Source of the DNA: Kovacikia minuta CCNUW1
GTDB taxonomy: Bacteria > Cyanobacteriota > Cyanobacteriia > Leptolyngbyales > Leptolyngbyaceae
Direction: 5' to 3'
Length of the DNA: 64,000 bases
Assembly: GCF_020091585.1 (NCBI RefSeq)
Contig: NZ_CP083582.1
Span: forward strand, 186,001 to 250,000
The first letter of the stretch is position 1. Each line of letters starts with the position of its first letter. The translations under genes were made by a program, and so were the position numbers. A model generated the notes under the pieces. That model did not search any database, had not been told where the DNA came from, and saw only the letters and a list, made by a program, of their open reading frames with translations. This document shows positions 12,474 to 61,131 of the stretch, one piece after another.

Positions 12474-13265
12474 TTATGGTGTGCCAAACCCACCCAGGGA
12501 GGTTTGCCCAAAGTTTCCTGCACTTTGGCTGGCTCGCACTGCCGATTGGGAAAACAGTTGAAAAGCTTGGCGAATTTCTTTGTGCCCGTTTCCAGGGGTC
12601 AGAATCCATTCATCACGAATTCCCATTTCCCGAAAAACCTGGTGAAAGTTGGTGCTGCCATCGTCAATGCCCATTGCCGCAATAATATGGTTTTCGGTAC
12701 GGAGCATGTCTTGCACCAGGGATTTTACGGTCTTTGCCGTTGCCCGTTGGGAATGGGCATCGGCACCATCGGTAATGATTAATGTCACGGTGCGAACCGG
12801 AACGCCATTGTCAGAAAACTCCTGTGTCTTAGCTAAAACCGTTCCCAACAGGACGATCGCCTGGTCATATAGCGGCGTTCCCTGATTCGGATTGTAGTTT
12901 TTCGCATCCATGCGCACCGCTTGTATGACGGGACAGTAGGGATAGAGAACGTGTCCGTTTAAGTAGCGGTTGTGCACCAGAATGTTGTCTTTTTGATTGG
13001 AGCTGAGCAGCGCATCAAGGACGGTGTTGTGCCCAGCACGCACGATCGCCTCATTACCCGCATAGTTAATTGAACCGGAATCATCCGGCATCAACGTTAC
13101 CAAAACGACTTCGCTGGCAGTCACATCATCAATATGAATACCCAATCCCGCTTGAATTTGGGCACCAATATCATGCACGTTCAAGGCTTGCAAAGATGCC
13201 GCAGAAAGAATCCCTTCATCCTGCGCTGATTGAAATAAGTAATTGAGATCCGGTGTGTGAGACAT
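12474..13265 (-). CDS. vWA-domain protein with intact MIDAS
   Basis: 263 residues from the ATG at 13265 (AGGAGA 6 nt upstream). Metal-ion-dependent adhesion site: DDSGS (61-65), a GTPLYD threonine and LIITDGAD aspartate are all present. The C-terminus is Ser/Gly rich. In bacteria, vWA proteins of this type often sit with PP2C phosphatases and Ser/Thr kinases, as in TerY-type triads. Here the same-strand kinase/phosphatase block starts 4 kb upstream. It converges with ispG with a 3-bp gap. It is probably a cytoplasmic, Mg-dependent protein-interaction module; the link to the distant block is inference. Confidence 0.82.
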   Translation of the reverse strand: MSHTPDLNYLFQSAQDEGILSAASLQALNVHDIGAQIQAGLGIHIDDVTASEVVLVTLMPDDSGSINYAGNEAIVRAGHNTVLDALLSSNQKDNILVHNRYLNGHVLYPYCPVIQAVRMDAKNYNPNQGTPLYDQAIVLLGTVLAKTQEFSDNGVPVRTVTLIITDGADAHSQRATAKTVKSLVQDMLRTENHIIAAMGIDDGSTNFHQVFREMGIRDEWILTPGNGHKEIRQAFQLFSQSAVRASQSAGNFGQTSLGGFGTP

Positions 13266-13479
13266 GGTAAGTTCTCCTGGTTTGAGATGAAAAATGAGCA
13301 AAGAAATCTGCAAGAGCAATCTCAAGATCACTCTGAAAACAAATTCCTGATCTGCAATTGGAAAAGCTGAAAGTATAGCTTCTAAGTCGTCTGGATGAGA
13401 TCTAGAGCCTTGTATGATGAAATCTGCTTTCTCTGTAACGAACTGGCAAGCGTTACGGGGCTACAACCAAAAATGAGTG

Positions 13480-14100
13480 CTACCGACTTGGGGAGCTGTT
13501 CGCATTGAAAATAGCGTTAACTGTCAGGTTTAATTCAGGAAATGTGGGTGAGATGATGCGATCGCGATCGCGAAATTGGCTGACTTGATATTCACCTTCA
13601 ATCAATACGTAAATAGAGATTGTTGGCTGTTTGGGCGAGCCAATGTACCTGATTGCTCCAAGCGCAAGGTGATCGACAATCCAGTATTCAGGAATGCCTA
13701 ATTCTTCATACTCCCTGAGTTTAGTGAGATAGTCGTCTCGCCAGTTGGTTGAAGTCACTTCTACCGCAAGCTGAATTGGTTCTCTGAGGGCGCTGTAGTC
13801 TTTTGGATTAGCTTGCCACACTGTTTTGTCAATGACACTAACATCAGGTGTTCTGCCCTGATCCAATCCATCCAGACGATTGACCTTTACAGATGCGGTG
13901 CGAGTAATTTTGTAATTTAGCCTTAATCGCCTGACTTCATCGTTAAATGAGAACTGAATAAAATCGGCAATATCGTCATGTTCTCGTGTTGCCATCAGTT
14001 CAACAATTTGACCATTGATTAACTCATAGCGCTTGCCATCGTCTGGGTGTTGTTCCAGGAATTCCTCAAAAGTCAGAGATTTGGATATAGCTTGGATCAT
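13480..14100 (-). CDS. Uma2-family (DUF820) protein
   Basis: 206 residues with the Uma2 pattern: an LTFEEFLEQHPDDGKRYELINGQ N-terminal signature (split here: FEEFLE, then YELINGQIVE), a TPDVSVID motif, and LAVEVTSTNWRDDYLTKL with the catalytic-type Glu-x-Thr. A C-terminal PEYWIVD strand follows. Uma2 proteins have a PD-(D/E)XK nuclease-like fold, are hugely expanded in cyanobacteria, and mostly lack known function. It is close to the Uma2 gene at 15416 (both contain TSTNWRDDY and GSPKQPT). Confidence 0.9.
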   Translation of the reverse strand: MIQAISKSLTFEEFLEQHPDDGKRYELINGQIVELMATREHDDIADFIQFSFNDEVRRLRLNYKITRTASVKVNRLDGLDQGRTPDVSVIDKTVWQANPKDYSALREPIQLAVEVTSTNWRDDYLTKLREYEELGIPEYWIVDHLALGAIRYIGSPKQPTISIYVLIEGEYQVSQFRDRDRIISPTFPELNLTVNAIFNANSSPSR

Positions 14101-14147: not shown

Positions 14148-15194
14148 TTAGAGGGTAATACCAGCCCAGCTACTAATCGTCGTCTTAGACTGCACCACAT
14201 TCATGCCCGCATCTGCAAACCGTTGAAAGGCGGCATTTGCCTGGTCGGTGAAGTCTACAATACCCGGCACAACAACGGGTGAGGTGCAATCTTCTAGCAG
14301 ATACACTTTTTTGGCTAAAGCGGGATCTTGGGCTTGAATTTCGGTAAGTAAATCGTCGATCGTCCAGGCAACACAATGACTTTTTGCCTGTCCGGCAATG
14401 ATCACCGCATCAAATTCCAGCAGTTTTTGAATAAAGCGGGTGTTCTTTTGGGCGATCGGTCTACCTGTGGGATCGTCTAACACTTCGGGACGCAAGACGG
14501 AGTAATTTTCTGTTAATGCATTGCTGCCTTTGATTTCAAAATTGGTTTGGCTGTTGCGGGCGATCGCGTGGAAGAAACAGGCTTCCTCAATGGCTGAAAC
14601 CAAAGCGTGACCAATGCCACCTAACATTGAGTGATAGGGCCAGATCGTAAGGGGATATTTCCCTGCCTGACTCAATCGTTCGGTGTAATGCAGGGCAAAA
14701 GATTGTAATGCGACATAGTTGCCTTTCGCAATTGAATAGGCGATCGCCGGATTCACTTTCCATTTCCCAGATTTCACATCGTCCAGGGAAATCATGGTCA
14801 TAGGCGGTGGATTTTCACCGGCATCATTCACCCAAAATACGGAATGGAAAATTTGCATTGCCGTATGCGTATCCATTGTGGGAGCGATTTCGGTGATGAT
14901 GCCTAAGTTGTGATAAATGAATTGACAGAGACGATCGTTATCTTCGACGGCACCGATGCCCGATCGTCCACCCACAAAAAGTTCAAACTCAGGAATGCAG
15001 AACGTATTTTGGGCATCAATAATCATTAAACAGATGCGTGTTTTGTCTTTTGCGGCAGGCTGCAATCCATGTTGCTTGGCCCAGTCTTTTGCCTGGGCTG
15101 CCCGCTCCTGGTAGGGAACCCGCCACACTTCACCAACTCGCCTGGAGTCAAAAAAGCCAGGAACATTTAATTGAGTCGAAGTTTGAGTAGCCAT
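14148..15194 (-). CDS. Isochorismatase-like cysteine hydrolase
   Basis: 348 residues, longer than the usual 180-220. The core carries the family triad: Asp in MIIDAQN, a mid-protein Lys, and the nucleophile Cys in KSHCVAWT preceded by VIIAGQ. The family includes nicotinamidases and isochorismatases; residues here do not fix the substrate. The N-terminal ~50 residues are an extension. It lies between two divergent Uma2 genes. Nicotinamide or NAD-derived substrates would fit the ADP-ribosylglycohydrolases upstream, but that is a guess. Confidence 0.85.
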   Translation of the reverse strand: MATQTSTQLNVPGFFDSRRVGEVWRVPYQERAAQAKDWAKQHGLQPAAKDKTRICLMIIDAQNTFCIPEFELFVGGRSGIGAVEDNDRLCQFIYHNLGIITEIAPTMDTHTAMQIFHSVFWVNDAGENPPPMTMISLDDVKSGKWKVNPAIAYSIAKGNYVALQSFALHYTERLSQAGKYPLTIWPYHSMLGGIGHALVSAIEEACFFHAIARNSQTNFEIKGSNALTENYSVLRPEVLDDPTGRPIAQKNTRFIQKLLEFDAVIIAGQAKSHCVAWTIDDLLTEIQAQDPALAKKVYLLEDCTSPVVVPGIVDFTDQANAAFQRFADAGMNVVQSKTTISSWAGITL

Positions 15195-15415
15195 AGTCTT
15201 TTCGTTAAGTTGTTTTTGCTTTATGCGCTAGCTTCTAGCATAGTGTTATTTTAACACTAAGATTCCTCGATCGCCAAGAGCTGGTCTGGATAAATTACAC
15301 CTCTGTTTTGTTAAGAATTCAACTTAAAGTTACAGAGGAAGCAACTCAAGGATTTGTAGGGTTGGGGCGATCATCCACAGCAGTGTCCGTTCCAGATACA
15401 CTAGAAAGTAGATTT

Positions 15416-16060
15416 ATGGTCTATCCAGTGAACGCCATGATGCAATCTGAGTTGGATCAGCAAGCAGACTTGGATCTCATGACTTTTGAGGAGTTCCTTG
15501 AATGGCACCCAGATGATGGGCGAATTTTTGAGTTGATTCGAGGAGTGCCCCAGGAAGTGAACCCCACCGGACCCCATGAAAAACTGTCAGGATTTCTGAC
15601 GATCGAGCTTGGCATCTCGATTCGGCAACAGCAACTTCCGTATTTCATTCCCAAAACGGCAACGCTGAAGCCCTATCGGGATAAGTCTGGTTACAAGCCT
15701 GATATGGTAATTCTGGATGAACGAGCATTGGTAAATGAGCCACGCTGGGAAAAGCAATCTACGATACTGAATGGCGCATCTGCACCGTTAGTAATTGAAA
15801 TTACCTCTACCAACTGGCGGGATGATTATGGCGTGAAGTTGAGCGATTACGAGCTGTTGGGCGTTCCTGAATATTGGATTGTGGATTATCTGGGATTAGC
15901 AGCGAGCCGCTTGATTGGTTCTCCCAAACAACCGACGGTTAGCATTTATAACCTGGTTGATGGAGAATATCAGGTGAATCAGTTTAGAAGTTCGGAACGA
16001 ATTATTTCGACCGTTTTGCCAGAACTGAACCTGCTTGCTGAACAACTCTTCAAACTGTAA
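15416..16060 (+). CDS. Uma2-family (DUF820) protein, second copy
   Basis: About 214 residues from the ATG at 15416 (ATGs at 15437 and 15440 are also possible). Signature motifs: LMTFEEFLEWHPDDGR, FELIRG, a YKPDMVILDE strand, IEITSTNWRDDY and a PEYWIVDYLGLA strand. It is close to the copy at 13480-14100 but divergent in orientation, so the pair brackets the cysteine hydrolase. Predicted nuclease fold; activity unproven in this subfamily. Confidence 0.88.
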   Translation: MVYPVNAMMQSELDQQADLDLMTFEEFLEWHPDDGRIFELIRGVPQEVNPTGPHEKLSGFLTIELGISIRQQQLPYFIPKTATLKPYRDKSGYKPDMVILDERALVNEPRWEKQSTILNGASAPLVIEITSTNWRDDYGVKLSDYELLGVPEYWIVDYLGLAASRLIGSPKQPTVSIYNLVDGEYQVNQFRSSERIISTVLPELNLLAEQLFKL

Positions 16061-16092: not shown

Positions 16093-16735
16093 ATGATGGC
16101 AAATTACCTTTCTTCAAAGGCTTCATTGAAGTTATGGTTTGGTTGGGTCGTCGCAAATACGATCGGGGGCGCGATCGGAGCATGGCTAGGGGAATCCTTT
16201 TTCAATTTAGGCAATTTAGCTCCTAATTCGTTACTGCGCTTCTTCCTGTTAGGACTAGGAATTAGTGTTCCAATCAGTCTTTGCCAGGGAATTTTTCTGG
16301 CAGGCAAAACCCCTAAGATTCTAGAGTGGATAGTTGCCAGCAGTGTTGTTTCAACCCTGTGTATTGGTTTTTCTCCCTTTTTGATCGCCCTTTTGCTCTT
16401 TGCTACAAGTGAACAAGGTGAGGACCTTATACTTCGGCGTACTTGGCTTGATGAGCGGATTGAGCATTGGGTTTGCTCAATGGCTATTGGTGCTTGAAAA
16501 AATACCTGGATCGAGTCGATGGGTGCTGTTTAGTAGTCTAGGTAGTGCGATCGGATTAGGTATAGGAACTGCTATGGCTAATAGTCAGGGACGCTGGTTC
16601 TTTGCTTGGTATATGGATCACTCATTAGGTAGGTTGTTGTTAATGGGGACTGTTGCCCGATTGTTATACGGAATGATTACAGGAATTGCTTTGGTGAGAA
16701 TACTGCAAAAAGATCGGATTGAACCGAATTTCTAA
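16093..16735 (+). pseudogene. Tandem membrane protein copy, frameshifted
   Basis: Two overlapping frames (16093-16497 and 16400-16735) together match the intact neighbour at 16755-17387. Shared segments include KLWFGWVVANTIGGAIG, SLCQGIF and RWVLFS.LGSAIGL. The switch lies near 16428-16431: dropping one A from CTTATAC restores DLYFGVLGL, aligning with LCFGIFGI of the intact copy. The restored protein would be about 213 residues with 5-6 hydrophobic segments. It is either one-base decay after duplication or a base-calling error. Confidence 0.75.
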
Positions 16736-16754
16736 ACAGCTTTTCAATGAGGAA

Positions 16755-17387
16755 ATGATGGCAAATCAACTTTCTTCAACCGCTTTACTGAAGTTGTGGT
16801 TTGGCTGGGTGGTAGCAAATACGATCGGTGGTGCGATCGGTTCGTGGTTAGGAGAAACTGTTTTCAACATAGACCCCAATTCGGTAGTAAGCTTCCTTCT
16901 ATTAGCAGCTTTGATCAGTGTTTCAATCAGCCTTTGTCAGGGAATTTTTCTAACACGCAAAGTTCCTAAGGTTCGTTGGTGGATAATCGTTAGCAGTATT
17001 GCTTCCACCCTGTGTATTGCGTTGTCGCCCTACATCCTTATACTGAGCGCTTTAGCTATTGGCTCACGCGGTGGAGAAAGTTTATGCTTCGGTATCTTTG
17101 GCATATTTAGTGGATTTGTTGTTGGATTAGCTCAATGGTTGTTTGTCCTTAGAAAATTTCCTGATTCAGGACGATGGATACTATTTAGCTGTTTGGGCAG
17201 CGCGATCGGATTAACTGTCGGCAATGCTGTAGCAATAAGCCTGACCGATTCAATTTTGAGCTTCGACTCCCCCATGAATGGGCTAGTGAGCATGGGAGCG
17301 ATCGCTCGCTTGTTAAATGGCGTAATTACAGGAATTCCACTCGTTCAACTGCTGCAAAGCCAAACTCAGCACAACTTAAGTAATTGA
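16755..17387 (+). CDS. Multi-pass membrane protein, intact copy of a tandem pair
   Basis: 210 residues from the ATG at 16755, with GAGGA just before it. Six hydrophobic segments with Gly-rich helices (NTIGGAIGSWLGE, CLGSAIGLTVGNAVA) suggest a small integral membrane protein. The two halves look weakly alike, both having a W-then-LGSAIG or GGAIG pattern, so internal duplication is possible. No catalytic motif. Its 3' end overlaps the convergent kinase gene by 22 bp. Function unknown. Confidence 0.75.
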   Translation: MMANQLSSTALLKLWFGWVVANTIGGAIGSWLGETVFNIDPNSVVSFLLLAALISVSISLCQGIFLTRKVPKVRWWIIVSSIASTLCIALSPYILILSALAIGSRGGESLCFGIFGIFSGFVVGLAQWLFVLRKFPDSGRWILFSCLGSAIGLTVGNAVAISLTDSILSFDSPMNGLVSMGAIARLLNGVITGIPLVQLLQSQTQHNLSN

Positions 17388-19270
17388 ATCTTTTGATGAT
17401 TAATCACATAAAGTCCTGTGCGGGCTGTTAGTAAACGACAACTGCTATCAACAAAGGGTTCTGTATCGACAAAGGTTGTGGTGTGAACGAGTTGGCTTTG
17501 TTGGATCTCAACTCGAATAATGCCGTCATCTGTACAGGCTAAAAGAAAGTCGTTGACTGCACAATAGGGAGATGGATTACCAGATTGATTTTTACCGAGT
17601 TTAGTTAACCAATTTTCATCTTTTTCGGTTGCTTCTGCGGTTGCACAGATGGTTCCATCTGATCGCAGAACCAGACAACGGTAATGAATCTGTCCTCGTT
17701 CTTGAGTCTTCAAAAATAACCAACAGTAACGATCACTGAAGGTACATCCCATCTGGATCAGTTGTCCCTGCCCGGGGGGAAGTTGAACCCGATCGTAAAT
17801 TCCCGGTTTCTCCGCATCAAATACAAACGCAACGCGCAAATTCCCGGCCTGATAGAATCCGAATCCAAAGTTTGAACCGATCCAGAAGTGGGTTTGGTCT
17901 GGCAAAACTTCCCCAATGTAAACTGCACCCAAAACGCTATCCCGCTGTAATTGACCCTTCGCAATCCAGTAGCGGTGCGAAGCTGTGGCATCGAATAAGG
18001 GGGTAGCGCCCAAACTATCCACCGCTAGCCGCTCTGGGGGCTTGTCGGGTTGAAAGCTGATGACCTGACCTTGATAGCCAAGCAGCGTTGTTTTCCCCTG
18101 AATCCGCCAGCGCAAATGGGGATTTAAGTTGCCATTCAGAATGATCGAACCATCTTCACGCCGGAACTCTCCACGATCGTGATACACCCATTTCAACTGC
18201 CCCTGCTCCGTCGCAGCGAACACAATCACCCCTTCAGTGGTAAACAACGGCGTTACTGTTACGTTGCCCTGGACAATTCTCTCCGCGTCTCCGCGTCCCT
18301 GCATCGCCGCGTCTTCCAAACTTCGGCATTCTGGACACACCGATCGCGCATGTTCCAGCCCACAACTTTGACAAATTCGCCAATTCAAATTGTTGAGTAA
18401 CGATCGGGGAAATTCTCCCCGTTTATCTTGCTCAAACACCTGCTGGAAGTAGTGCAACAACTCATCTGGCAGCACTTTGTAAGGAATTGCCGGTTTGGGA
18501 TAGCGCACCTCTGGATGAAAGATCGTGATGCGATGCAGCGATCGGGCTGCCTGGGGAATCTGTTGGCTGACATCCTTGGGCTTGTAGACTCCCCCGTAAG
18601 GATCAACAAACAAAAGGCATTGCATCAACATCACCGCAAAGGCATACCAGTCTGAGTTAGCGTTATGAGCTTGTTGCAAAATGGGTTGGGTTGCTTGCCG
18701 ATTGCACAACAAGGGATCAACAAATCGGGCTGTAAACATTTGGCAGGGAAATGCCCCAAACTGAAAAGAATCGGCATCAATCAAATAGGCTTTTGTACCT
18801 TCAATGAGCACATTCAAATCATTGAAATCACCAATTACCACACCTGCAAAATGCAGTTTAGAAACCGTGTCATGCAAATCTTGAAAAATCTGAACGACCT
18901 GCTGTTGGCTGATTCCAGCCTGCCGGAAACTGCGTTCACCATATCTCAGCAAAATTTCCGTGCCATTTAGAAATGGCATGGTATAACCGTAAATGATCTT
19001 ACTCGCTTTATCCTTTGCTAACTCCTCTGGCGCAATCACCCGATCGGGCAAATTGCGAGGAAACTGGGGGAGTTTTTGCTGTTGCAGTTGGAGTCGATCG
19101 CGGGCTGTCTGCTGTTCGTTTGGTAACCCCTGGTAGTCCGGATGATGGGGTTGCTTGAATAGCTTCAACGCTTTGCCCTGCCCAATGTCGAACACATCCG
19201 CTTCACCACCTTTACCGATCGCCCGTTTTGGATCGGCACGGATCTTTTTGCCATTTACATACACATCCAT
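17366..19270 (-). CDS. Protein kinase-like protein with zinc ribbon and C-terminal repeat domain
   Basis: 634 residues from the ATG at 19270. The TTG at 19279 is in frame but lacks a site, whereas GGAG lies ~10 nt before 19270. Kinase features: Gly-rich loop GKGGEADV (19-26), Lys36 in ALKLF, catalytic GDFNDLN (147-153) in place of HRDxxxxN, and DADSF (165-169) in place of DFG. A zinc ribbon (Cys300, 303, 312, 315) follows, then ~300 residues of beta-rich repeats, perhaps a propeller. Catalytic Asp and metal Asp are kept, so activity is plausible. It is the last gene of the block, 5 nt after the glycohydrolase stop. Confidence 0.85.
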   Translation of the reverse strand: MDVYVNGKKIRADPKRAIGKGGEADVFDIGQGKALKLFKQPHHPDYQGLPNEQQTARDRLQLQQQKLPQFPRNLPDRVIAPEELAKDKASKIIYGYTMPFLNGTEILLRYGERSFRQAGISQQQVVQIFQDLHDTVSKLHFAGVVIGDFNDLNVLIEGTKAYLIDADSFQFGAFPCQMFTARFVDPLLCNRQATQPILQQAHNANSDWYAFAVMLMQCLLFVDPYGGVYKPKDVSQQIPQAARSLHRITIFHPEVRYPKPAIPYKVLPDELLHYFQQVFEQDKRGEFPRSLLNNLNWRICQSCGLEHARSVCPECRSLEDAAMQGRGDAERIVQGNVTVTPLFTTEGVIVFAATEQGQLKWVYHDRGEFRREDGSIILNGNLNPHLRWRIQGKTTLLGYQGQVISFQPDKPPERLAVDSLGATPLFDATASHRYWIAKGQLQRDSVLGAVYIGEVLPDQTHFWIGSNFGFGFYQAGNLRVAFVFDAEKPGIYDRVQLPPGQGQLIQMGCTFSDRYCWLFLKTQERGQIHYRCLVLRSDGTICATAEATEKDENWLTKLGKNQSGNPSPYCAVNDFLLACTDDGIIRVEIQQSQLVHTTTFVDTEPFVDSSCRLLTARTGLYVINHQKIQLLKLC

Positions 19271-19275
19271 CCCAT

Positions 19276-20046
19276 TCAAACTCCATATTGCGCCTGAAAT
19301 GCCTCTACAACGTCATACAACCGCTGATCAAGGCGAATGATTATTTCGTCTTTAATCGGCTCAGGAACGCCCTGATAAAACGCTTCAGCAATGCTGCCTG
19401 CGATACAGGCGATCGTGTCACTGTCGCCACCGATAGAAACCGCATTTCGAATCGCATCTTCAAAATCGGTTGCTTCCAAAAACGCGGTGATGGCCTGGGG
19501 GACAGAACCCTGACAGGACACATCAAACCGATAGGTGGGCCGAATCTCATCCAAAGATTTGCTCAAGTCGTAGCCAAAGGTTGATTCAACGGAGGTCTTA
19601 ATTTCCGCCTTGCTGCATCCCGTTCGCGCCCAAAAGATCGCGGCGGCAACTGCCTGGGCACCCTTAATTCCCTCCGGATGGTTGTGCGTCACCGCTGCCG
19701 TGCGCTGGGCTTCCTGCAAAACCGCTGCCAAATCCTCAAACGCATAGGCAACCGGACTGACGCGCATAGCGGAACCATTCCCCCAACTGTTGTAAGGTTC
19801 GCGGCTACTGGAACCCGCCCAGGCGTTGAAAGTGCCACCATATCCCACATGGGGAAACCGCTGGTGATACCGCTTGAGGCTATCGGTATAATCGCTCCGA
19901 TTCAAAATCGCATCCGCGATCGCCACCGTCAGCACCGTGTCATCCGTAAACCGGGATTCGGCACGGAACAGCAAAAAATTCTTCGTTTTCGTATTGTCTC
20001 TTTCGTAGACTGAGCCGATAATATCGCCTGCGATCGCGCCGAGCAT
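19276..20046 (-). CDS. ADP-ribosylglycohydrolase family protein (copy 1)
   Basis: 256 residues, all of it the DraG/ARH fold. The dinuclear metal site looks intact: FTDDT (33-37) near the N-terminus and GGDSDT (206-211) near the C-terminus. MLGAIAGDIIGS is the family start. The family removes ADP-ribose from proteins or cleaves ADP-ribose conjugates in the cytoplasm. It begins 6 nt after the OGFr-gene stop with no Shine-Dalgarno (the repeat fills that position) and ends 5 nt before the kinase ATG, so translational coupling is likely. Confidence 0.92.
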   Translation of the reverse strand: MLGAIAGDIIGSVYERDNTKTKNFLLFRAESRFTDDTVLTVAIADAILNRSDYTDSLKRYHQRFPHVGYGGTFNAWAGSSSREPYNSWGNGSAMRVSPVAYAFEDLAAVLQEAQRTAAVTHNHPEGIKGAQAVAAAIFWARTGCSKAEIKTSVESTFGYDLSKSLDEIRPTYRFDVSCQGSVPQAITAFLEATDFEDAIRNAVSIGGDSDTIACIAGSIAEAFYQGVPEPIKDEIIIRLDQRLYDVVEAFQAQYGV

Positions 20047-20052
20047 AGGTTT

Positions 20053-20601
20053 TTAGGTGGTAGGTGGTAGGTGGTGGGTGGTAGGTGTGACTGCTTCTTT
20101 CCAAAAGGTGTAGCTGCGGGGGTCGATGTCATCGGGTTCGGCTTGATAAATTTGAGTTAAGCACTTGAAAAATGCCTGGGCGTATGGCTCTAAGCCCAGC
20201 AATCGAAGACTGGTGAGAATTCTGGTGATGCGGAGATGATTGTGATCGCCCCAATTTAGCCAATCCTGCCTGCGTTCTGGAAATGAATCAGCCATTGTAA
20301 TTGAGATCGCTCCATCCGCTTCCAAGCATTGCAATCCATAGAACTGCAACATGCGTTTAAACGAAATTAGCAATCGATTTTTTAATTCATCATTCGTTCT
20401 AAACGTCTCGATATCAGCCTGAGTTAAAACAGGTGCACGCGAATTAAATCGGCTTCTCTCCAGCAGGGGAAACAACCATTGGATGTAGTCGTGAACTTCC
20501 TCCAGCAAACTGTTATCCCAATCCCAAATTTGTTCAATCCTGCGCCCTTCCAGGTCAGAGCTTTGACCCAAATAGAACCGGACGATCGGCGAACGTGCCA
20601 T
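20053..20601 (-). CDS. OGFr-domain protein
   Basis: About 182 residues from the ATG at 20601 (GGAG 9 nt upstream); an ATG at 20616 adds five. The WDWDNSLLEEVHDYIQWLFP stretch is the signature of the opioid growth factor receptor conserved region (OGFr_N), here followed by FNSRAPVLT and an all-helical remainder. In vertebrates this domain belongs to a peptide receptor; bacterial members are uncharacterised. The last ~11 residues (TPTTHHLPPTT) are encoded by a GGTGGTA array. It sits between two ADP-ribosylglycohydrolases. The domain call is good; the role is unknown. Confidence 0.72.
   Translation of the reverse strand: MARSPIVRFYLGQSSDLEGRRIEQIWDWDNSLLEEVHDYIQWLFPLLERSRFNSRAPVLTQADIETFRTNDELKNRLLISFKRMLQFYGLQCLEADGAISITMADSFPERRQDWLNWGDHNHLRITRILTSLRLLGLEPYAQAFFKCLTQIYQAEPDDIDPRSYTFWKEAVTPTTHHLPPTT
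20054..20087. repeat. Heptanucleotide tandem repeat (GGTGGTA unit), translated
   Basis: Four to five GGTGGTA heptamers at the OGFr/ADP-ribosylglycohydrolase junction. They encode the OGFr protein's C-terminal tail and occupy the place where the next gene's ribosome site would be. Confidence 0.8.
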
Positions 20602-20685
20602 TACAACCAACTCCATTCCTCATGTTGTCTTTGAAGTAGGGTTTCGCATTATCCCCAGACCTCTTATTCGGGGGGCGTGGGGTAG

Positions 20686-20705
20686 GGGCGTATGGCCATA
20701 CGCCC
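20686..20705. repeat. Perfect 20-bp palindrome in a GTAGGGGCG-type repeat
   Basis: GGGCGTATGGCCATACGCCC is self-complementary, flanked by GTA and TAC. A G-rich stretch follows up to 20750. This is typical of palindromic intergenic repeats in cyanobacteria. It lies in the 200-bp spacer between the OGFr gene and the second glycohydrolase. Confidence 0.75.
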
Positions 20706-20803
20706 GTACAGGACCCCACATAGCGGGGGTTTGGGGGGAAGTCCCCCAAGCAAGGTTTTTCACGAAGCCCGAATCCTTCCACACCCAATCCTTCACGACA
20801 GCC

Positions 20804-21583
20804 TCAAAACTGGCAATACTTTTCCATAAAAACCTCCGTCACCTCCCGCAACGGCTGATCCAGCCGCATGAATACTTCCTGCGCGATCGCCGCCGGTACA
20901 CCCCCATAAAACGCCTGCGCCATCCCCCCCGTAATGCACGTCAGCGTGTCCGTATCACCTCCCAAAGACACCGCATTCCGAATCGCATCCTCAAAATCCG
21001 TCGATTCCAAAAAAGCCACGATCGCCTCCGGCACCGTTTTCTGGCACGACTCATTGAATTGATAAACCGGACGGATCTCATCCACCGTGCGGCTCAAGTC
21101 ATAGCCAAAATTCGTCTCAATGTAGGACTTAATTTCAGCCTTGCTGCAACCTGTTCGCCCCAGAAAAATCGCTGCTGCCGTTGCCTGCGCCCCCTTAATC
21201 CCCTCCGGATGGTTGTGGGTCACTTCCGCACTGCGTTGCGCTTCCAGCAATACAGACTCCAGATCATCAAAGGCAAACCCGATCGCGCTGACCCGCATTG
21301 CCGAGCCATTGCCCCAACTGTTGTAAGGCTCAGATTCGCCAGAGGTCGCCCAGACAAAAAACCGGGAACCATAACTTCCCATGGGATTTGGATAGCGACG
21401 GAAATAATCTCTCAACACTTTCCGATAATCCCGATCGCCCAAAACCGCATCCGCGATCGCGATCGTCAAAATCGAATCATCCGTAAACTCACTCTCCTGA
21501 CTAAACAGGGGAAAATCTTTTGTTTTGACATTATCAAATTCATAAATCGAGCCAATGATATCGCCTGCGATCGCGCCTAGCAT
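20804..21583 (-). CDS. ADP-ribosylglycohydrolase family protein (copy 2)
   Basis: 259 residues from the ATG at 21583, paralogous to copy 1. It starts MLGAIAGDIIGSIYE and keeps FTDDS near residue 33 and GGDTDT near the C-terminus, so the metal site is intact apart from Thr to Ser in the first motif. Longer starts at 21637 would add a repeat-encoded extension. The short leader before the ATG (CCTAAAACCT) is nearly the same as in copy 1, supporting duplication of gene plus leader. The OGFr gene separates the copies. Confidence 0.92.
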   Translation of the reverse strand: MLGAIAGDIIGSIYEFDNVKTKDFPLFSQESEFTDDSILTIAIADAVLGDRDYRKVLRDYFRRYPNPMGSYGSRFFVWATSGESEPYNSWGNGSAMRVSAIGFAFDDLESVLLEAQRSAEVTHNHPEGIKGAQATAAAIFLGRTGCSKAEIKSYIETNFGYDLSRTVDEIRPVYQFNESCQKTVPEAIVAFLESTDFEDAIRNAVSLGGDTDTLTCITGGMAQAFYGGVPAAIAQEVFMRLDQPLREVTEVFMEKYCQF

Positions 21584-21654
21584 AGGTTTTAGGGGGTAAG
21601 GGGTTAGGGAAAAGGATGAAGGATAAAAAACCTTCACTGACTCCTCACTACATT

Positions 21655-21722
21655 CAACTCAAACCTCAAAACTCAAAACTCAAAACTTAAAACTCAAAAC
21701 TTTTTATCCTTTATCCTTCATT
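21655..21722. repeat. STRR arrays (CTCAAAA and TTTATCC units)
   Basis: Seven or so CTCAAAA/CTTAAAA heptamers are followed by TTTATCC/TTCATCC units, ending at the PP2C stop codon. Confidence 0.8.
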
Positions 21723-22553
21723 CTTTTCCCTCCTTCTAATCACCACCATCGTCGTATCATCCGGCAGCAGCCCTCCTTCTTGCCGTATCCATCGGGCTTC
21801 CCAGTCGGGTTTGGTAATGGTGTGGTTCATTTGAGTCAGGCGGCGACGGATGCAGTCAGGATTTTTGAAATAGCGATCGTCCTCCCAAAATTGAGAAATT
21901 TTACCCACCGATTCAGATTTTCCAGGTAGGGGATGATTAGCAGCAGCGATCGCATCTTGCACACCATCCGTACCAATCAGAATGGACTGTACAGAGCGGG
22001 TTGGAACCCGGTGATGCACTTGAATTTTTAAGTCCTCCGAGGTTAACCCTGCCACCGCCGAGGAAATCAAACCATAGCTCAGGTAAGGGGGCGCATTGTT
22101 AAGGAAACTGGGTAGGGAAATGACCTCATCATTCAGGGCAATCACACCATCTCCGATCGCAAATAGAACGGTTTCGGTTGGTGCCAGCACAACTCCGACA
22201 ACGGTAAACAACAGGTAGTCTCGAACGGTGCAGACGCGATCGCCGCCCAACAGGTTTAGCAGTTTATCCAGTTGCACCAGGGAACTCTGGCGTACCTGTT
22301 CCCAGAATGCTTCCGCATAAAGGGCAGGGGAACCACTGTCTGTTAATTGCTCACAAATAACATCAGCCACAATCGGGGCACCCAATTTAGCACCCACTTC
22401 ACTATGAGTGCCGCTGCTACAACCATCGCAAACAACAGCCACCACACCAGCAGACAAACTTCGGTAGCAGTAAGCATCCTGATTGTTTTTGCCAACCCGT
22501 GAATGCTCTTTGCCGATCACCGAACCTGCTGCAATTTCAAATAAACCTTTCAT
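21711..22553 (-). CDS. PP2C-family protein phosphatase
   Basis: 280 residues. PP2C motifs: NQDA (24-27), VCDGCSSG (42-48) with the metal Asp, AIGDGV, IGTDGVQDA and PDDTT near the end. Eukaryotic-like PP2C enzymes dephosphorylate Ser/Thr. Lying between two kinase genes, it is the obvious counter-enzyme. The 21-bp inverted repeat upstream ends one base before the ATG, and there is no Shine-Dalgarno. The C-terminus is basic (RRREKNEG) where the ORF runs into the repeat. Confidence 0.9.
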   Translation of the reverse strand: MKGLFEIAAGSVIGKEHSRVGKNNQDAYCYRSLSAGVVAVVCDGCSSGTHSEVGAKLGAPIVADVICEQLTDSGSPALYAEAFWEQVRQSSLVQLDKLLNLLGGDRVCTVRDYLLFTVVGVVLAPTETVLFAIGDGVIALNDEVISLPSFLNNAPPYLSYGLISSAVAGLTSEDLKIQVHHRVPTRSVQSILIGTDGVQDAIAAANHPLPGKSESVGKISQFWEDDRYFKNPDCIRRRLTQMNHTITKPDWEARWIRQEGGLLPDDTTMVVIRRREKNEG

Positions 22554-22554
22554 T

Positions 22555-22599
22555 TGTGTATTCTCTACACTAAGACCATCTTAGTGTAGAGAATACACA
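22555..22599 (-). promoter_or_regulatory. Perfect 21-bp inverted repeat with 3-nt loop abutting PP2C start
   Basis: Arms at 22555-22575 and 22579-22599 are exact reverse complements (TGTGTATTCTCTACACTAAGA on the plus strand, written here in two parts: TGTGTATTCTC and TACACTAAGA), separated by CCA. In the transcript it would form a 21-bp stem ending 1 nt before the PP2C ATG. It has no T-tract, so it is not a classical terminator. It may be an operator, an RNase processing site, a translation block, or a mobile palindrome. Confidence 0.85.
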
Positions 22600-22652
22600 G
22601 TGTCAACCAGAAGTGGCAGCTCGATTTAGAACGGAATCTTACTTCTTGATTT

Positions 22653-24788
22653 CTAGATGCGATAAGCCCTGTAGGCGATTACCGCCCCTCCTGCCGCGAT
22701 CGCAGCCACAGCCGGAGCCGCCCCAGGGACCCATCCCATCTGGGTAAAGATGCCGAAACAAACCGCCCCCAAAACGAGTAACAACGCTGTACCGCTGATA
22801 GCCAGAACCAGGGGACGGCGAATGCACCAGGCGACCGTGCTACCCGCGATCGCCCAGCCCGCAATCCAAACCGCTTCAGCCCAATCGGACCAATACCAGA
22901 ATAGCGATCGCCCATTGAAAGCCGCCTCCAGGATCTGGCTGACTGAATTGGCATGGATTAGAACGCCTGCAATTCGAGGGGTTTCTTGCTCTGCTGAACT
23001 GAAAGGGGTAAAAGACAAATCCTTGCCACTTACAGCGGTTGTCCCAATCAACACCACTTTGTCCTTGACCCATTCTGGCTTGACCTGCCCACTCAAAACA
23101 TCGCCCAAGCTAACTTGCCGGGCAGGCGTTCGGCTGCGATATTTGAGGAGAATCTGGTAGCCACGGGCATCGATCGCCTGATACGCTCCAGTATGGCTGT
23201 CCAGCGGTTGAAACGTTCCTTTACCAAGCTGAAGCACATCCGGATTTGCCCGATTGGGTTGGGGCTTCATTCCCTCTGCCGCAAGATATGCCAGCGCCAG
23301 GCGCAGCGAAAAGGAGTACAGTGTGGTGGTTTGATTATCTGCAAACATCAGATTCCGCCGCACCACCCCATCCTGGTCGAGAACCAGGTCATTAAATCCA
23401 ACTCGATTAAAAGGGATACCGAGAGGTGGAGGTGTTGCAGGGACCTGAGCACTCCCCATCTGAGTGATTGTAACCAGATTAGGAGCAGCCAGCTCAGTTC
23501 TTAAGGCCGCATTCCCCGGTTCCTGGGGAATATCACGCAGCAGATCCAGGCCAATTACCCTTGGCTGATAGGATTTCAGTACCCTTAACGTCTGGGCAAC
23601 CGTGCGATCGGACAACGGGAACTGCTTTTGGGTCTGAATGTCCCTATCCGTAATACCCACCACCAGCAACCGGGGGTCTGGTCCCGGATCAGGGCTGATC
23701 TGCGTCATTCGATCAAAAGTTGCCAACTCCAAAGGCTGTAACCAGCCAAGTTGACGCATTCCTAAAATTAACCCTGTCACTGTAAAGCTGGCAATTCCAA
23801 TAACAAGTGACGCCAGCAATGCACGAGGCTGGAATTGTTCCCCTCTCTCCCCTGCGGCGGGCACCCTCGACGGGACATATTCAGGTGGGGCTAACATCGT
23901 GGGCGGCAGTTGTGTGCTGTCTGTCAACCCTTCTGTAATCATTTCCGTCGGTTGACTGAGAAAAGCATCCGCAGGCATCTCTAATGCCTCCAGCACCTCC
24001 CTGGCAGATTGGTACCGTTGATTAAAGTGGTAGCGGGTCATCTGGCTCAGAATGGTCTTCAGTTTGGGACTGATCTTGATTCGCTTTTGCCAGAGAACCT
24101 CATCCGTATTGGGATGGGTGGGTAGCTGATAGGGCTGCAATCCGGTCAGTGCCTCGATCGCCGTCATACCCAGGGCATACAGGTCACTGTTATAACGGGG
24201 TTTTCCCATCAATTGCTCACTGGGTCCATAACCGTGGGTGCCGATCCCGATCGTCAGGTTCGTCTCTCCTGGCTCGCCCATCATTTGAGTTTGAATTTCT
24301 TTGACGGCTCCAAAATCAATCAATACAAACTTGCCATCTCGCTGCCGCCGGATTAAATTTCCAGGCTTAATATCCCGGTGAATCACCTGGTTGTGATGAA
24401 CAAACTCCAGAACGTGCAATACATCCCGTAACAGATCCATTACCCCCGGTTCATCTAACCGCTGAACGCTATCCAGTTCCTTACTCAGCGGTTGCCCTTC
24501 CACATACTCCTGAACCAGATAAAACTCGTGATCCTCCTCAAAATCATCCACCAGCGAAGGAATTTGATCATGGCTGCCCAATTTTCTCAATGTGGCAACT
24601 TCCGTAGAAAAGAGGCGGCGGGCAATATGGAGAAAATCCTGATCCTGACGGGCAGGCTTGAACTGCTTAACGACACATTTGGGGTTGTCAGGTTGTTGAA
24701 TATCCTCTGCAACATAGGTCTGTCCAAAGCCACCGCTGCCTAACACCTGAATAATCCTGTAGCGTCTGTTGAGCAAGATTCCCAGCAT
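22653..24788 (-). CDS. Ser/Thr protein kinase with CHASE2 sensor
   Basis: 711 residues. The N-terminal kinase domain is complete: GSGGFG loop (17-22), Lys41, HRDIKPGN (137-144), DFG (158-160), GTHGYGPSEQ activation segment. A linker and a membrane segment (about 325-345) lead to an extracytoplasmic CHASE2 domain (DRMTQISPDPGP start, VIGLDLL, VVLIGTTA), then three C-terminal membrane segments. The layout is the reverse of histidine-kinase CHASE2 proteins and typical of cyanobacteria. It begins the block; PP2C follows about 100 bp later. The ligand is unknown. Confidence 0.93.
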   Translation of the reverse strand: MLGILLNRRYRIIQVLGSGGFGQTYVAEDIQQPDNPKCVVKQFKPARQDQDFLHIARRLFSTEVATLRKLGSHDQIPSLVDDFEEDHEFYLVQEYVEGQPLSKELDSVQRLDEPGVMDLLRDVLHVLEFVHHNQVIHRDIKPGNLIRRQRDGKFVLIDFGAVKEIQTQMMGEPGETNLTIGIGTHGYGPSEQLMGKPRYNSDLYALGMTAIEALTGLQPYQLPTHPNTDEVLWQKRIKISPKLKTILSQMTRYHFNQRYQSAREVLEALEMPADAFLSQPTEMITEGLTDSTQLPPTMLAPPEYVPSRVPAAGERGEQFQPRALLASLVIGIASFTVTGLILGMRQLGWLQPLELATFDRMTQISPDPGPDPRLLVVGITDRDIQTQKQFPLSDRTVAQTLRVLKSYQPRVIGLDLLRDIPQEPGNAALRTELAAPNLVTITQMGSAQVPATPPPLGIPFNRVGFNDLVLDQDGVVRRNLMFADNQTTTLYSFSLRLALAYLAAEGMKPQPNRANPDVLQLGKGTFQPLDSHTGAYQAIDARGYQILLKYRSRTPARQVSLGDVLSGQVKPEWVKDKVVLIGTTAVSGKDLSFTPFSSAEQETPRIAGVLIHANSVSQILEAAFNGRSLFWYWSDWAEAVWIAGWAIAGSTVAWCIRRPLVLAISGTALLLVLGAVCFGIFTQMGWVPGAAPAVAAIAAGGAVIAYRAYRI

Positions 24789-60198: not shown

Positions 60199-61131
60199 CT
60201 AGCGAGGACGGATGATCCCAGGAGCGGCGATCGCAGAGTGGCTGAGGGAAGAAATGGTTGGATCGTAAACTCCTGACCATGCGGCTAGAAGGCGCTCTGA
60301 CAGATAACAAATCTCTGGTCCAGAAATTTGCCAATCCAGAATTTGGCTGGGCTTAGACAAACTGAGAGACCACTCCACCGGAATTCCGCCAGCGCTGTTG
60401 TAAGCACCAGCAAGGGCACCGGTCAGGGCACAAACCATTCGGCTCTCGCTACCGCAACGGACGGCACGGAGCAGAGTCAGGCGCATATCTTCGGGAGTGC
60501 TGAGAAAACAGAACAATGCCAGGGAGATCGCCCTATTTCCTGTCCTGGACTGGTTGGTGGGTAACAGAACCCTGAGTGCGGTATGAAGATCCCTGCCCTC
60601 CTGTAATAGGGATTGTCCCTGTTGAAGTTTGGTGATCAGATCCGAGTCAGAATCGGTTGGGGTTGACTCCCGCTGTAAATAGGCAATCGTGCGCGGGATC
60701 AAATCCAACGGTTTCAACCGCTCTTGAAGTGCCTGGGCGATCGCAAAACCACTGGTCAGCACCCCGCCTTGAAGCCCACCATAGCCCTGCCCATTAACCA
60801 GCGTTTGCAGCGTCTGCTGTAGTTTTATTTCATCGTCATGGAAAAATAAAGCAATGGGCAAGGTTGCGATCGCCCATTCTGCCGCCATCATCAGTTGAGC
60901 TTGATTCAGAGGAGATTGGCTTTGTTTCTCAGGGGCAGAAAACTGATGGTTTGTTTGCCCCAATCCCAGCCCATTCTGCCCTCCCCAGTGGATTAATGCC
61001 TCCGCATAATCGATCGCAGTTTTCCCGTAGTTAAGGTGGGATGGTTGCTTCTGAAACTCGAACCCCAACCTGTCTCCTAGCGCTGCTCCCAAGAGTGCTC
61101 CTTGAAACCGACTCAATAACGAGTAGCGCAT
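60199..61131 (-). CDS. ADP-ribosylglycohydrolase-fold protein lacking metal-site motifs
   Basis: 310 residues. The opening (RFQGALLGAALGDRLGFEF) and the C-terminal helical pattern (GCGSESR replaced, ALTGALAGAYNSAGGIP) are DraG/ARH fold. The FTDDT and GGDxDT motifs of active enzymes are missing: TRCGSESRMVCAL sits where GGDxDT should be. It is probably non-catalytic or uses other residues. Third member of the family in this window. Convergent with nothing; it lies 140 bp downstream of petA, same strand, but after a terminator. Confidence 0.75.
   Translation of the reverse strand: MRYSLLSRFQGALLGAALGDRLGFEFQKQPSHLNYGKTAIDYAEALIHWGGQNGLGLGQTNHQFSAPEKQSQSPLNQAQLMMAAEWAIATLPIALFFHDDEIKLQQTLQTLVNGQGYGGLQGGVLTSGFAIAQALQERLKPLDLIPRTIAYLQRESTPTDSDSDLITKLQQGQSLLQEGRDLHTALRVLLPTNQSRTGNRAISLALFCFLSTPEDMRLTLLRAVRCGSESRMVCALTGALAGAYNSAGGIPVEWSLSLSKPSQILDWQISGPEICYLSERLLAAWSGVYDPTISSLSHSAIAAPGIIRPR

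Follow-up and report, generated by a model that had tools for sequence, protein, structure and literature searches.

A conserved kinase, phosphatase, vWA and nicotinamidase-fold gene set behind a putative NrtR operator in cyanobacteria, with copies in huge phages

We analyzed a stretch of 64,000 nucleotides from the cyanobacterium Kovacikia minuta CCNUW1 (contig NZ_CP083582.1, positions 186,001 to 250,000), referred to here as the window; coordinates are counted from its first letter. The genome is 8.56 Mb in size and belongs to the same family as Stenomitos rutilans (Leptolyngbyaceae). The minus strand of the window encodes a protein kinase with a zinc ribbon and a C-terminal all-beta domain (KZnR), a PP2C phosphatase, two ADP-ribosylhydrolases (ARH1 and ARH2), an OGFr_N-domain protein (OGFr), a nicotinamidase-fold cysteine hydrolase (ISOC), a vWA protein and a CHASE2 kinase (Table 1). 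ISOC and vWA are set apart from the rest by about 2 kb of plus-strand genes.

A reading made from the sequence alone had placed six of these genes, from the CHASE2 kinase to KZnR, in one block. The ORF list (open reading frames) and Pfam bear out the six minus-strand ORFs and their domain names. The boundaries of the unit did not hold, because two conserved members, ISOC and vWA, lie outside 17366-24788. The several gaps of 5 to 6 nt that it described are found at two of the five junctions, OGFr/ARH2 (6 nt) and ARH2/KZnR (5 nt, taking the ATG at 19270 as the start). The CHASE2/PP2C gap is 99 nt, the PP2C/ARH1 gap is 127 nt (73 nt with a GTG start), and the ARH1/OGFr gap is 187 nt. What the sequence-only reading missed is the center of the system, namely ISOC, the regulator NrtR and the putative operator that goes with it, and the occurrence of the set in huge phages.

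Table 1. Genes and sites of the set in the window
Feature	Position	Strand	Remarks
CHASE2 kinase	22653-24788	-	Pfam Pkinase and CHASE2
Promoter-like TTGACA-17-TAAGAT	22606-22578	-	Overlaps both operator sites before PP2C
Double NrtR-type operator (putative)	22554..22600	-	Sites 22554-22572 and 22582-22600, directly 5' of the PP2C start codon
PP2C phosphatase	21711..22553	-	First gene of the unit; PF13672/PP2C_2, E 3.4e-22
ARH1, ADP-ribosylhydrolase	20804..21583	-	ADP_ribosyl_GH PF03747, E 5e-35; PDB relatives ARH3-type
ARH1/OGFr spacer	20617..20803		Holds a dispersed repeat of ~34 bp
OGFr_N-domain protein	20053..20616	-	Accessory; PF04664, E 1.3e-31
ARH2, ADP-ribosylhydrolase	19276..20046	-	Module type; PF03747, E 2e-36
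KZnR	17366..19270	-	Kinase, zinc ribbon and C-terminal all-beta domain; ATG start; ORF 17366-19279
NrtR-type operator (putative)	15241..15259	-	46 nt upstream of ISOC; 25.0 bits, best of the window
ISOC, nicotinamidase-fold cysteine hydrolase	14148..15194	-	348 amino acids; N-terminal extension of ~50 residues
vWA protein	12474..13331	-	MIDAS motif DxSxS..T..D

To delimit the set, we searched a sample of 388 genomes of the cyanobacterial class for KZnR. The search matched 58 genomes; 46 of them, from 22 genera, have an orthologue (>300 bits), and 12 distant matches were dropped. We read 45 KZnR loci, the window included, and left out genome G284 (G and L numbers denote genomes and loci). The same-strand partners over these loci were PP2C in 42, ISOC in 42, vWA in 40, ARH in 34 and OGFr in 5. 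ISOC is absent from L113 and L116, in which the set is split between contigs, and from L147, which holds a kinase fragment. vWA is absent from the same three loci and from L086 and L130, where contig ends cut both. PP2C is absent from L116, L147 and L144, and in the last of these a putative operator directly precedes the kinase gene. Over 43 loci, the recurrent neighbors identified among the clusters scanned for families were NrtR, ISOC and ARH. The vWA gene occurs in 43 of the 388 genomes, and every one of these has KZnR (43 of 46; Fisher 5e-54, uncorrected for kinship). With the same reservation about kinship, the co-occurrence is far beyond chance. The earlier hint at a triad of PP2C, zinc-ribbon kinase and vWA thus agrees with the loci. 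Its suggested coupling of phosphorylation to ADP-ribose removal survives insofar as PP2C and ARH recurrently share the KZnR neighborhood, and fails in the roles given to the CHASE2 kinase and OGFr. In one genome, G111 (L146), the kinase and nicotinamidase genes are each broken in two frames, and NrtR and the operator are missing. This copy may be decaying, or the breaks may be sequencing faults.

The ISOC protein has a nicotinamidase fold in its AlphaFold2 model (pLDDT 89.1, built with 13 sequences). Ranks 1 to 16 of its structural neighbors (VIA-align) are nicotinamidases, with Z scores of 17.1 to 22.6 over residues 50 to 348; residues 1 to 49 are barely covered. The best other member of the superfamily has Z 16.9, a tie with the 16th nicotinamidase, and Staphylococcus aureus PncA is at rank 35 with Z 15.1. 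Foldseek matched the model to 2wta at 1.9e-12. Residues D60, K222, C274, D108, H110 and H188 do not vary across 27 rows from cyanobacteria, nor across 13 rows that include relatives from viral contigs. We take D60/K222/C274 to be the catalytic Asp-Lys-Cys triad and D108/H110/H188 to be the metal-binding Asp-His-His of nicotinamidases. The fold and these residues suggest that nicotinamide is the substrate. A distant homologue on a Variovorax plasmid (L237, 4528-10774) has as neighbors a gene with a macro domain, two NUDIX genes and one for NAD kinase (NAD, nicotinamide adenine dinucleotide), a further setting linked to NAD.

The signaling proteins of the set also keep their key residues. KZnR residues K36, D148, N153 and D165 and cysteines C300/C303/C312/C315 are invariant in 17 cyanobacterial rows; presumably these are the kinase Lys, the catalytic Asp and Asn, the metal Asp and the zinc-ribbon cysteines. 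Pfam matches of KZnR to Pkinase and DZR are found only below the cut-off. The AlphaFold2 model (pLDDT 87.8) has the kinase fold among its PDB neighbors. Kinases fill the neighbor list, and the C-terminal domain is called all-beta from predicted secondary structure. In PP2C, D26, D43, G44, D196 and D265 are invariant in 17 rows, and the MIDAS motif of vWA is invariant in 18 rows. A phage homologue of vWA attains the PF00092 VWA cut-off. The only plasmid match of vWA at E 0.01 is a Prevotella vWA protein (27.8%).

In 35 of the 45 KZnR loci, a gene for a 230-amino-acid NrtR is found upstream, on the other strand, and in 33 of these it lies within 1.5 kb of PP2C. All five proteins scanned matched NrtR_WHD (PF21906, 98 to 103 bits) and NUDIX (PF00293). 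The NrtR/PP2C intergenic region carries TTGACATAGTGTnnnnnnnACACTA, and a second such site follows in most loci. We trained a symmetrical matrix on 17 distinct sites, all taken from genomes other than that of the window. Thirty-two of the 33 intergenic stretches yielded a training site; the NrtR loci L110 and L144 are outside the 33. The three best sites in the window are 15241-15259 (25.0 bits), 22554-22572 (16.4 bits) and 22582-22600 (11.4 bits), and the next scores 9.5 bits. The six other genes score -0.5 or less within 350 nt; operator sites stand only before PP2C and ISOC. In 400 random stretches, 99% of scores lay within 7.7 bits and the largest was 14.1 bits. A site of at least 14 bits precedes the first gene in 40 of the 45 KZnR loci, paired in 35 of them. 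Training loci make up 32 of the 45; among the 13 non-training loci, 8 carry a site. Elsewhere in the 45 stretches there are three sites of this strength, besides the ISOC site of the window. The site 15241-15259 is an exact palindrome, which arose in none of 100 shuffles of the window. A promoter scan gave 8 matches against 14.7 in shuffles, and therefore TTGACA-17-TAAGAT counts only by its place.

NrtR also tracks the set across genomes. An orthologue is present in 42 of the 46 KZnR genomes versus 32 of the 342 others. In the window genome, it lies at a distance from the unit, two genes from a NadA-like gene (a name read from sequence). A second NrtR-type gene of that genome stands beside NadD-like and NAPRT-like genes (L195, 6846-9798; names likewise read from sequence). 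Among the matches listed for the 32 kinase-less NrtR genomes, NrtR is within 6 kb of ISOC in 15 of 19. The kinase-less loci L149, L152 and L160 bear an operator site and all have NrtR one or two genes away, and in L163, also kinase-less, a site precedes an ARH-ISOC pair. Kinase-less genome G098 has NrtR, operator, PP2C and ISOC in succession (L211, 7464-10517), a phosphatase without its kinase. NrtR proteins elsewhere are repressors that sense ADP-ribose. PMC9503650 cites such sensing in the members that have been studied. By analogy, NrtR would bind the putative operator here and be released by ADP-ribose.

Three genomes in which the set is split provided a natural test of common control. These are the window genome, G009 and G017. 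In G009, ISOC and vWA are on two contigs other than that of the kinase, each embedded in kilobases of unrelated sequence; in G017, ISOC-vWA lies apart from PP2C-KZnR. The separated ISOC gene has its own operator site in all three genomes, scoring 25.0 bits in the window and 26.0 and 16.5 bits in the other two. The lone vWA gene of G009 also has a site (22.5 bits). None of the split-set sites was used to train the matrix. That separated ISOC and vWA genes keep operator sites points to selection for common control. Around ISOC in the window lie two Uma2-family genes on opposite strands (13480-14100 and 15308-16060), which may be marks of the rearrangement that split the unit. Three overlapping plus-strand ORFs (16093-17387) run towards the 3' end of the KZnR gene, and two of them share a near-identical membrane-protein-like sequence close to the start.

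Copies of the set are found in huge phages. IMG/VR contigs of 41 to 545 kb carry KZnR together with partner genes, for the most part in unchanged order, and the proteins are 23 to 70% identical. Of 23 phage contigs with KZnR, vWA is present in 23, ISOC in 22 and PP2C in 19. The 23 include the near-copy pairs L217/L221 and L218/L219 and three GenBank 'uncultured phage' records (462 to 595 kb); the latter have KZnR, ISOC and vWA, and a PP2C match in one. The flanks of 9 of the 23 contigs hold at least one match to NAPRT, NadE or NadD. Pfam scans of five phage loci found NAPRTase in three (L217, L222 and L225), NAD synthase in three (L222, L223 and L225) and a NadD-like domain in one (L223). Terminase PF03237 was matched in 1 of 14 IMG/VR contigs. 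Some genes beside the phage copies (e.g., L223 10891-11433) we call macro-like, a label that we base on a motif; the two that were scanned had no Pfam match. One huge-phage contig lacks the nicotinamidase, and its shortened kinase gene abuts a vWA gene that is also shortened, which looks like a deletion or rearrangement (L224, 8154-9027).

The ARH, OGFr and CHASE2 genes differ in how closely they belong to the set. The Glu of ARH and the Asp residues of its TDDT and DxDT motifs, presumably catalytic, are invariant in 49 of 49 module ARHs, including that of the window. The best PDB relatives of ARH are of the ARH3 type and 2cwc. In a tree of 25 rows, which left out the ARHs of 17 loci of one genus, ARH2 groups with the module ARHs of G224 and G269 (100/98), and ARH1 groups weakly (81/64) with the ARH of ARH-OGFr pairs in G224 and G282. 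A recent tandem duplication giving ARH1 and ARH2 is unsupported, since they are on different branches. A third ADP-ribosylglycohydrolase gene at 60199-61131 is at best 24% identical to the tree rows. The ~34-bp repeat in the ARH1/OGFr spacer has parts that match 41 other places in the window genome (40 of 77 candidates scored).

OGFr had been proposed as an adaptor or substrate of the block, a role that its distribution does not bear out. It is found in 33 of the 388 genomes, mostly away from KZnR, and as a conserved member it is ruled out by its 5 of 45 KZnR loci. Among 30 OGFr neighborhoods examined, 7 hold other set genes, with the distant CHASE2-kinase matches L058 and L060 excluded. These are L051, L052, L054 and L064 of one genus, the ARH-OGFr pairs L066 and L078, and the OGFr-nicotinamidase pair L076, of whose place L034 is a named copy. 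Of 27 OGFr loci given, 25 had a called ORF; among these, neighbors recur only between near relatives, apart from one large family (5 loci) and a few matches shared by two loci. In a tree of 43 rows, OGFr is linked to parts of the set in 8 (two from the same genome), with three label changes, at least two of them forced. OGFr is thus an accessory, and it probably joined on two or more occasions. It occurs in 8 of the 46 KZnR genomes versus 25 of the 342 others (Fisher p 0.042, uncorrected for kinship). A search by sequence found no PDB relative of OGFr. The CHASE2 kinase, also named earlier as a member, is in line within 6 kb only in the window among the 45 loci; in L114, pieces resembling CHASE2 lie 6 to 8 kb upstream on the same strand. 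Because promoter-like sequence and operator sites lie in the 99-nt gap before PP2C, this kinase is unlike the head of the unit and was ruled out as such. Its PADLOC PD-T4-6 matches are kinase-domain matches.

The NrtR regulon of NAD metabolism, reportedly set out by Rodionov in 2008, is said to place NrtR, with its Nudix and winged-helix domains, beside NAD-salvage genes. The set resembles it in having an NrtR of this architecture and a conserved palindromic putative operator at a promoter, and differs in that the operator also precedes a kinase/phosphatase/vWA switch. The switch itself resembles TerY-P, a triad of vWA, PP2C and zinc-ribbon kinase that PMC11090510 describes after Anantharaman 2012. 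It fits the definition in that all three stand together on the same strand (PP2C in 42 and vWA in 40 of the 45 loci). Compared by the description there, the likeness extends to the fusion of kinase and zinc ribbon and to the MIDAS-type vWA. In contrast to TerY-P, KZnR has an extra all-beta C-terminal domain, and its partners are ISOC, ARH and NrtR, whereas the description cited has tellurite, restriction or CoCoNuT genes in that place. The closest description is the ARG-centered set of PMC9503650 section 3.8, which has an ARH/ARG enzyme, an NrtR-type Nudix or WYL regulator, a phosphatase and vWA and no coupled ADP-ribosyltransferase, none having been seen in ours either. However, protein kinases, PP2C and nicotinamidase go unnamed in that section. 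The phosphatases it gives are of the rhodanese-like, calcineurin-like, HD or HAD kind, and its lineages are actinobacteria, planctomycetes and proteobacteria. The main text of PMC9503650 nowhere uses the terms nicotinamidase, isochorismatase, PncA or PP2C. Our literature search found no description of a kinase, PP2C, vWA and nicotinamidase set; older TerY-P or NrtR primary papers may hold an earlier mention.

Bacterial immunity has a central weapon in the destruction of NAD, and phages can answer it by rebuilding NAD, as in the NARP pathways. This answer is also found in PMC9503650, where section 3.6 has phage NAD salvage with NadV/NadM/NadR. The phage copies described here resemble that salvage, as given there, in bringing genes that would rebuild NAD from nicotinamide, and differ in the route, which would run through nicotinamidase, NAPRTase, NadD and NadE with a phosphorylation switch.

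We suggest, with a probability of about 60%, that the genes form an NrtR-controlled NAD-repair module in which a TerY-P-like phosphorylation switch acts on nicotinamide recapture and ADP-ribose removal. This reading starts from the observed gene set and its co-occurrence, the conserved operator, the nicotinamidase fold and residues of ISOC, and the presence of the set in huge phages, partly beside NAD-salvage genes. A nicotinamidase product feeds NAPRTase, NadD and NadE, and ARH enzymes free ADP-ribose. In this scenario, NrtR would repress both the PP2C-ARH-KZnR genes and the nicotinamidase gene. NAD breakdown or protein ADP-ribosylation would yield free ADP-ribose, in part through the ARH enzymes, and this would lift the repression; NAD breakdown would thus be the inducer of the unit. 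The nicotinamidase would then convert released nicotinamide to nicotinate, from which NAPRTase, NadD and NadE would rebuild NAD, and ARH would strip ADP-ribose from proteins. The kinase, PP2C and vWA switch would tune the salvage. All targets of the kinase are proposals; the nicotinamidase or the vWA protein would be the most likely one. In phages, the same core may help to rebuild NAD after NAD-degrading immunity.

Several findings weigh against this NAD-repair reading. No ADP-ribosyltransferase or NADase turned up in the unit, although no search was aimed at them. ISOC is below the family models: by itself it matched nothing in Pfam, the window protein had no PF00857 (isochorismatase) match in a search of its own genome up to E 10, 5 of 27 relatives touched that model below its cut-off (best E 0.013), and for NF008623 (PncA) the window protein was unmatched and viral relatives reached at most 44.4 bits against a cut-off of 174. 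The exact palindrome occurs once in the genome, versus three times for a reversed control pattern, and therefore the operator rests on position and conservation. Four of the 46 KZnR genomes have no NrtR orthologue (G017, G042, G073 and G111), of which G017 and G073 retain an operator site. No site precedes the kinase gene that stands alone in G009 (L116; best 4.6 bits). Only 3 of 35 kinase-less ISOC loci have a site of at least 14 bits within 350 nt of ISOC, and so most nicotinamidase genes are without operator control. PP2C is missing from one uncut locus, L144, and ARH from 11 of 45 loci, some of them cut. One genus supplies 22 of the 46 KZnR genomes. In the phages, tblastn found no ARH in 26 loci, ISOC homologues stand without another member in 7 of 16 viral loci (flanks up to 5 kb), and 2 of 15 aligned kinases, both distant, have no zinc ribbon.

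In another explanation, the set is a host system against viral ADP-ribosylation, as predicted for ARG-centered operons. There, ARH would remove ADP-ribose placed by phages, vWA would chaperone the modified proteins, NrtR would sense the released ADP-ribose, and the nicotinamidase would recycle the by-product. The sets of PMC9503650 section 3.8 would be a precedent, and the 34 of 45 loci with ARH, with catalytic residues kept throughout, agree with it. Yet ARH is no constant core: it is the part most often missing, whereas kinase, nicotinamidase and vWA are nearly constant. Its position also varies (after ISOC in L120 and L140), and the phage loci gave no ARH at all by tblastn. Moreover, ISOC (68 to 85% identical to the window copy in the rows aligned) and vWA (73 to 85%) are not fast evolving. 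We consider this explanation unlikely. Nearly the same low weight, or a shade less, goes to plain NAD housekeeping, by which NrtR pairs with the nicotinamidase, and the triad of kinase, PP2C and vWA is a separate signaling unit that merely shares the promoter. ISOC matches in 244 of the 388 genomes (mostly one each) against KZnR in 46, the NrtR-nicotinamidase linkage found without the kinase, and the solitary ISOC genes of viral loci all fit it. It does not explain why KZnR adjoins ISOC in 42 of 45 loci, the misses being the split sets of G009 and G017, in which ISOC keeps its operator, and one kinase fragment, nor why the grouping recurs in huge phages with proteins so diverged.

The six-gene circuit of the sequence-only reading, which counts the CHASE2 kinase in and makes OGFr an adaptor or substrate, now appears very improbable. 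Its genes do adjoin on one strand in the window, OGFr is linked to set parts in 8 of 43 tree rows, and ARH1-OGFr pairs recur in G224 and G282. Against this stand the rarity of OGFr at KZnR loci, the single locus with the CHASE2 kinase in line, and the promoter-like and operator sequence that parts that kinase from PP2C. The neighborhood survey that was proposed as its check brought KZnR, PP2C and ARH together recurrently and left OGFr mostly elsewhere.

If the NAD-repair module is as we suggest, NAD salvage would have a control layer that we did not find described in the literature searched, and TerY-P-like triads would gain a concrete metabolic target. Many cyanobacteria would have their nicotinamidase in a protein that lies below the Pfam and NCBIfam cut-offs. 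We tentatively go further and propose, at somewhat less than even odds, that kinase, phosphatase, vWA and nicotinamidase make up a four-gene NAD-repair switch common to cyanobacteria and huge phages, in which phosphorylation gates the recapture of nicotinamide upon NAD destruction, for example by NAD-degrading immunity. To our knowledge, no NAD salvage system controlled by phosphorylation is known from prokaryotes or phages, and such a switch, if true, would be the first. Phages would then carry the set, in some cases along with the remaining pathway genes, as a means of surviving NAD depletion, and cyanobacteria would keep it under a repressor released by ADP-ribose and add ADP-ribosylhydrolases.

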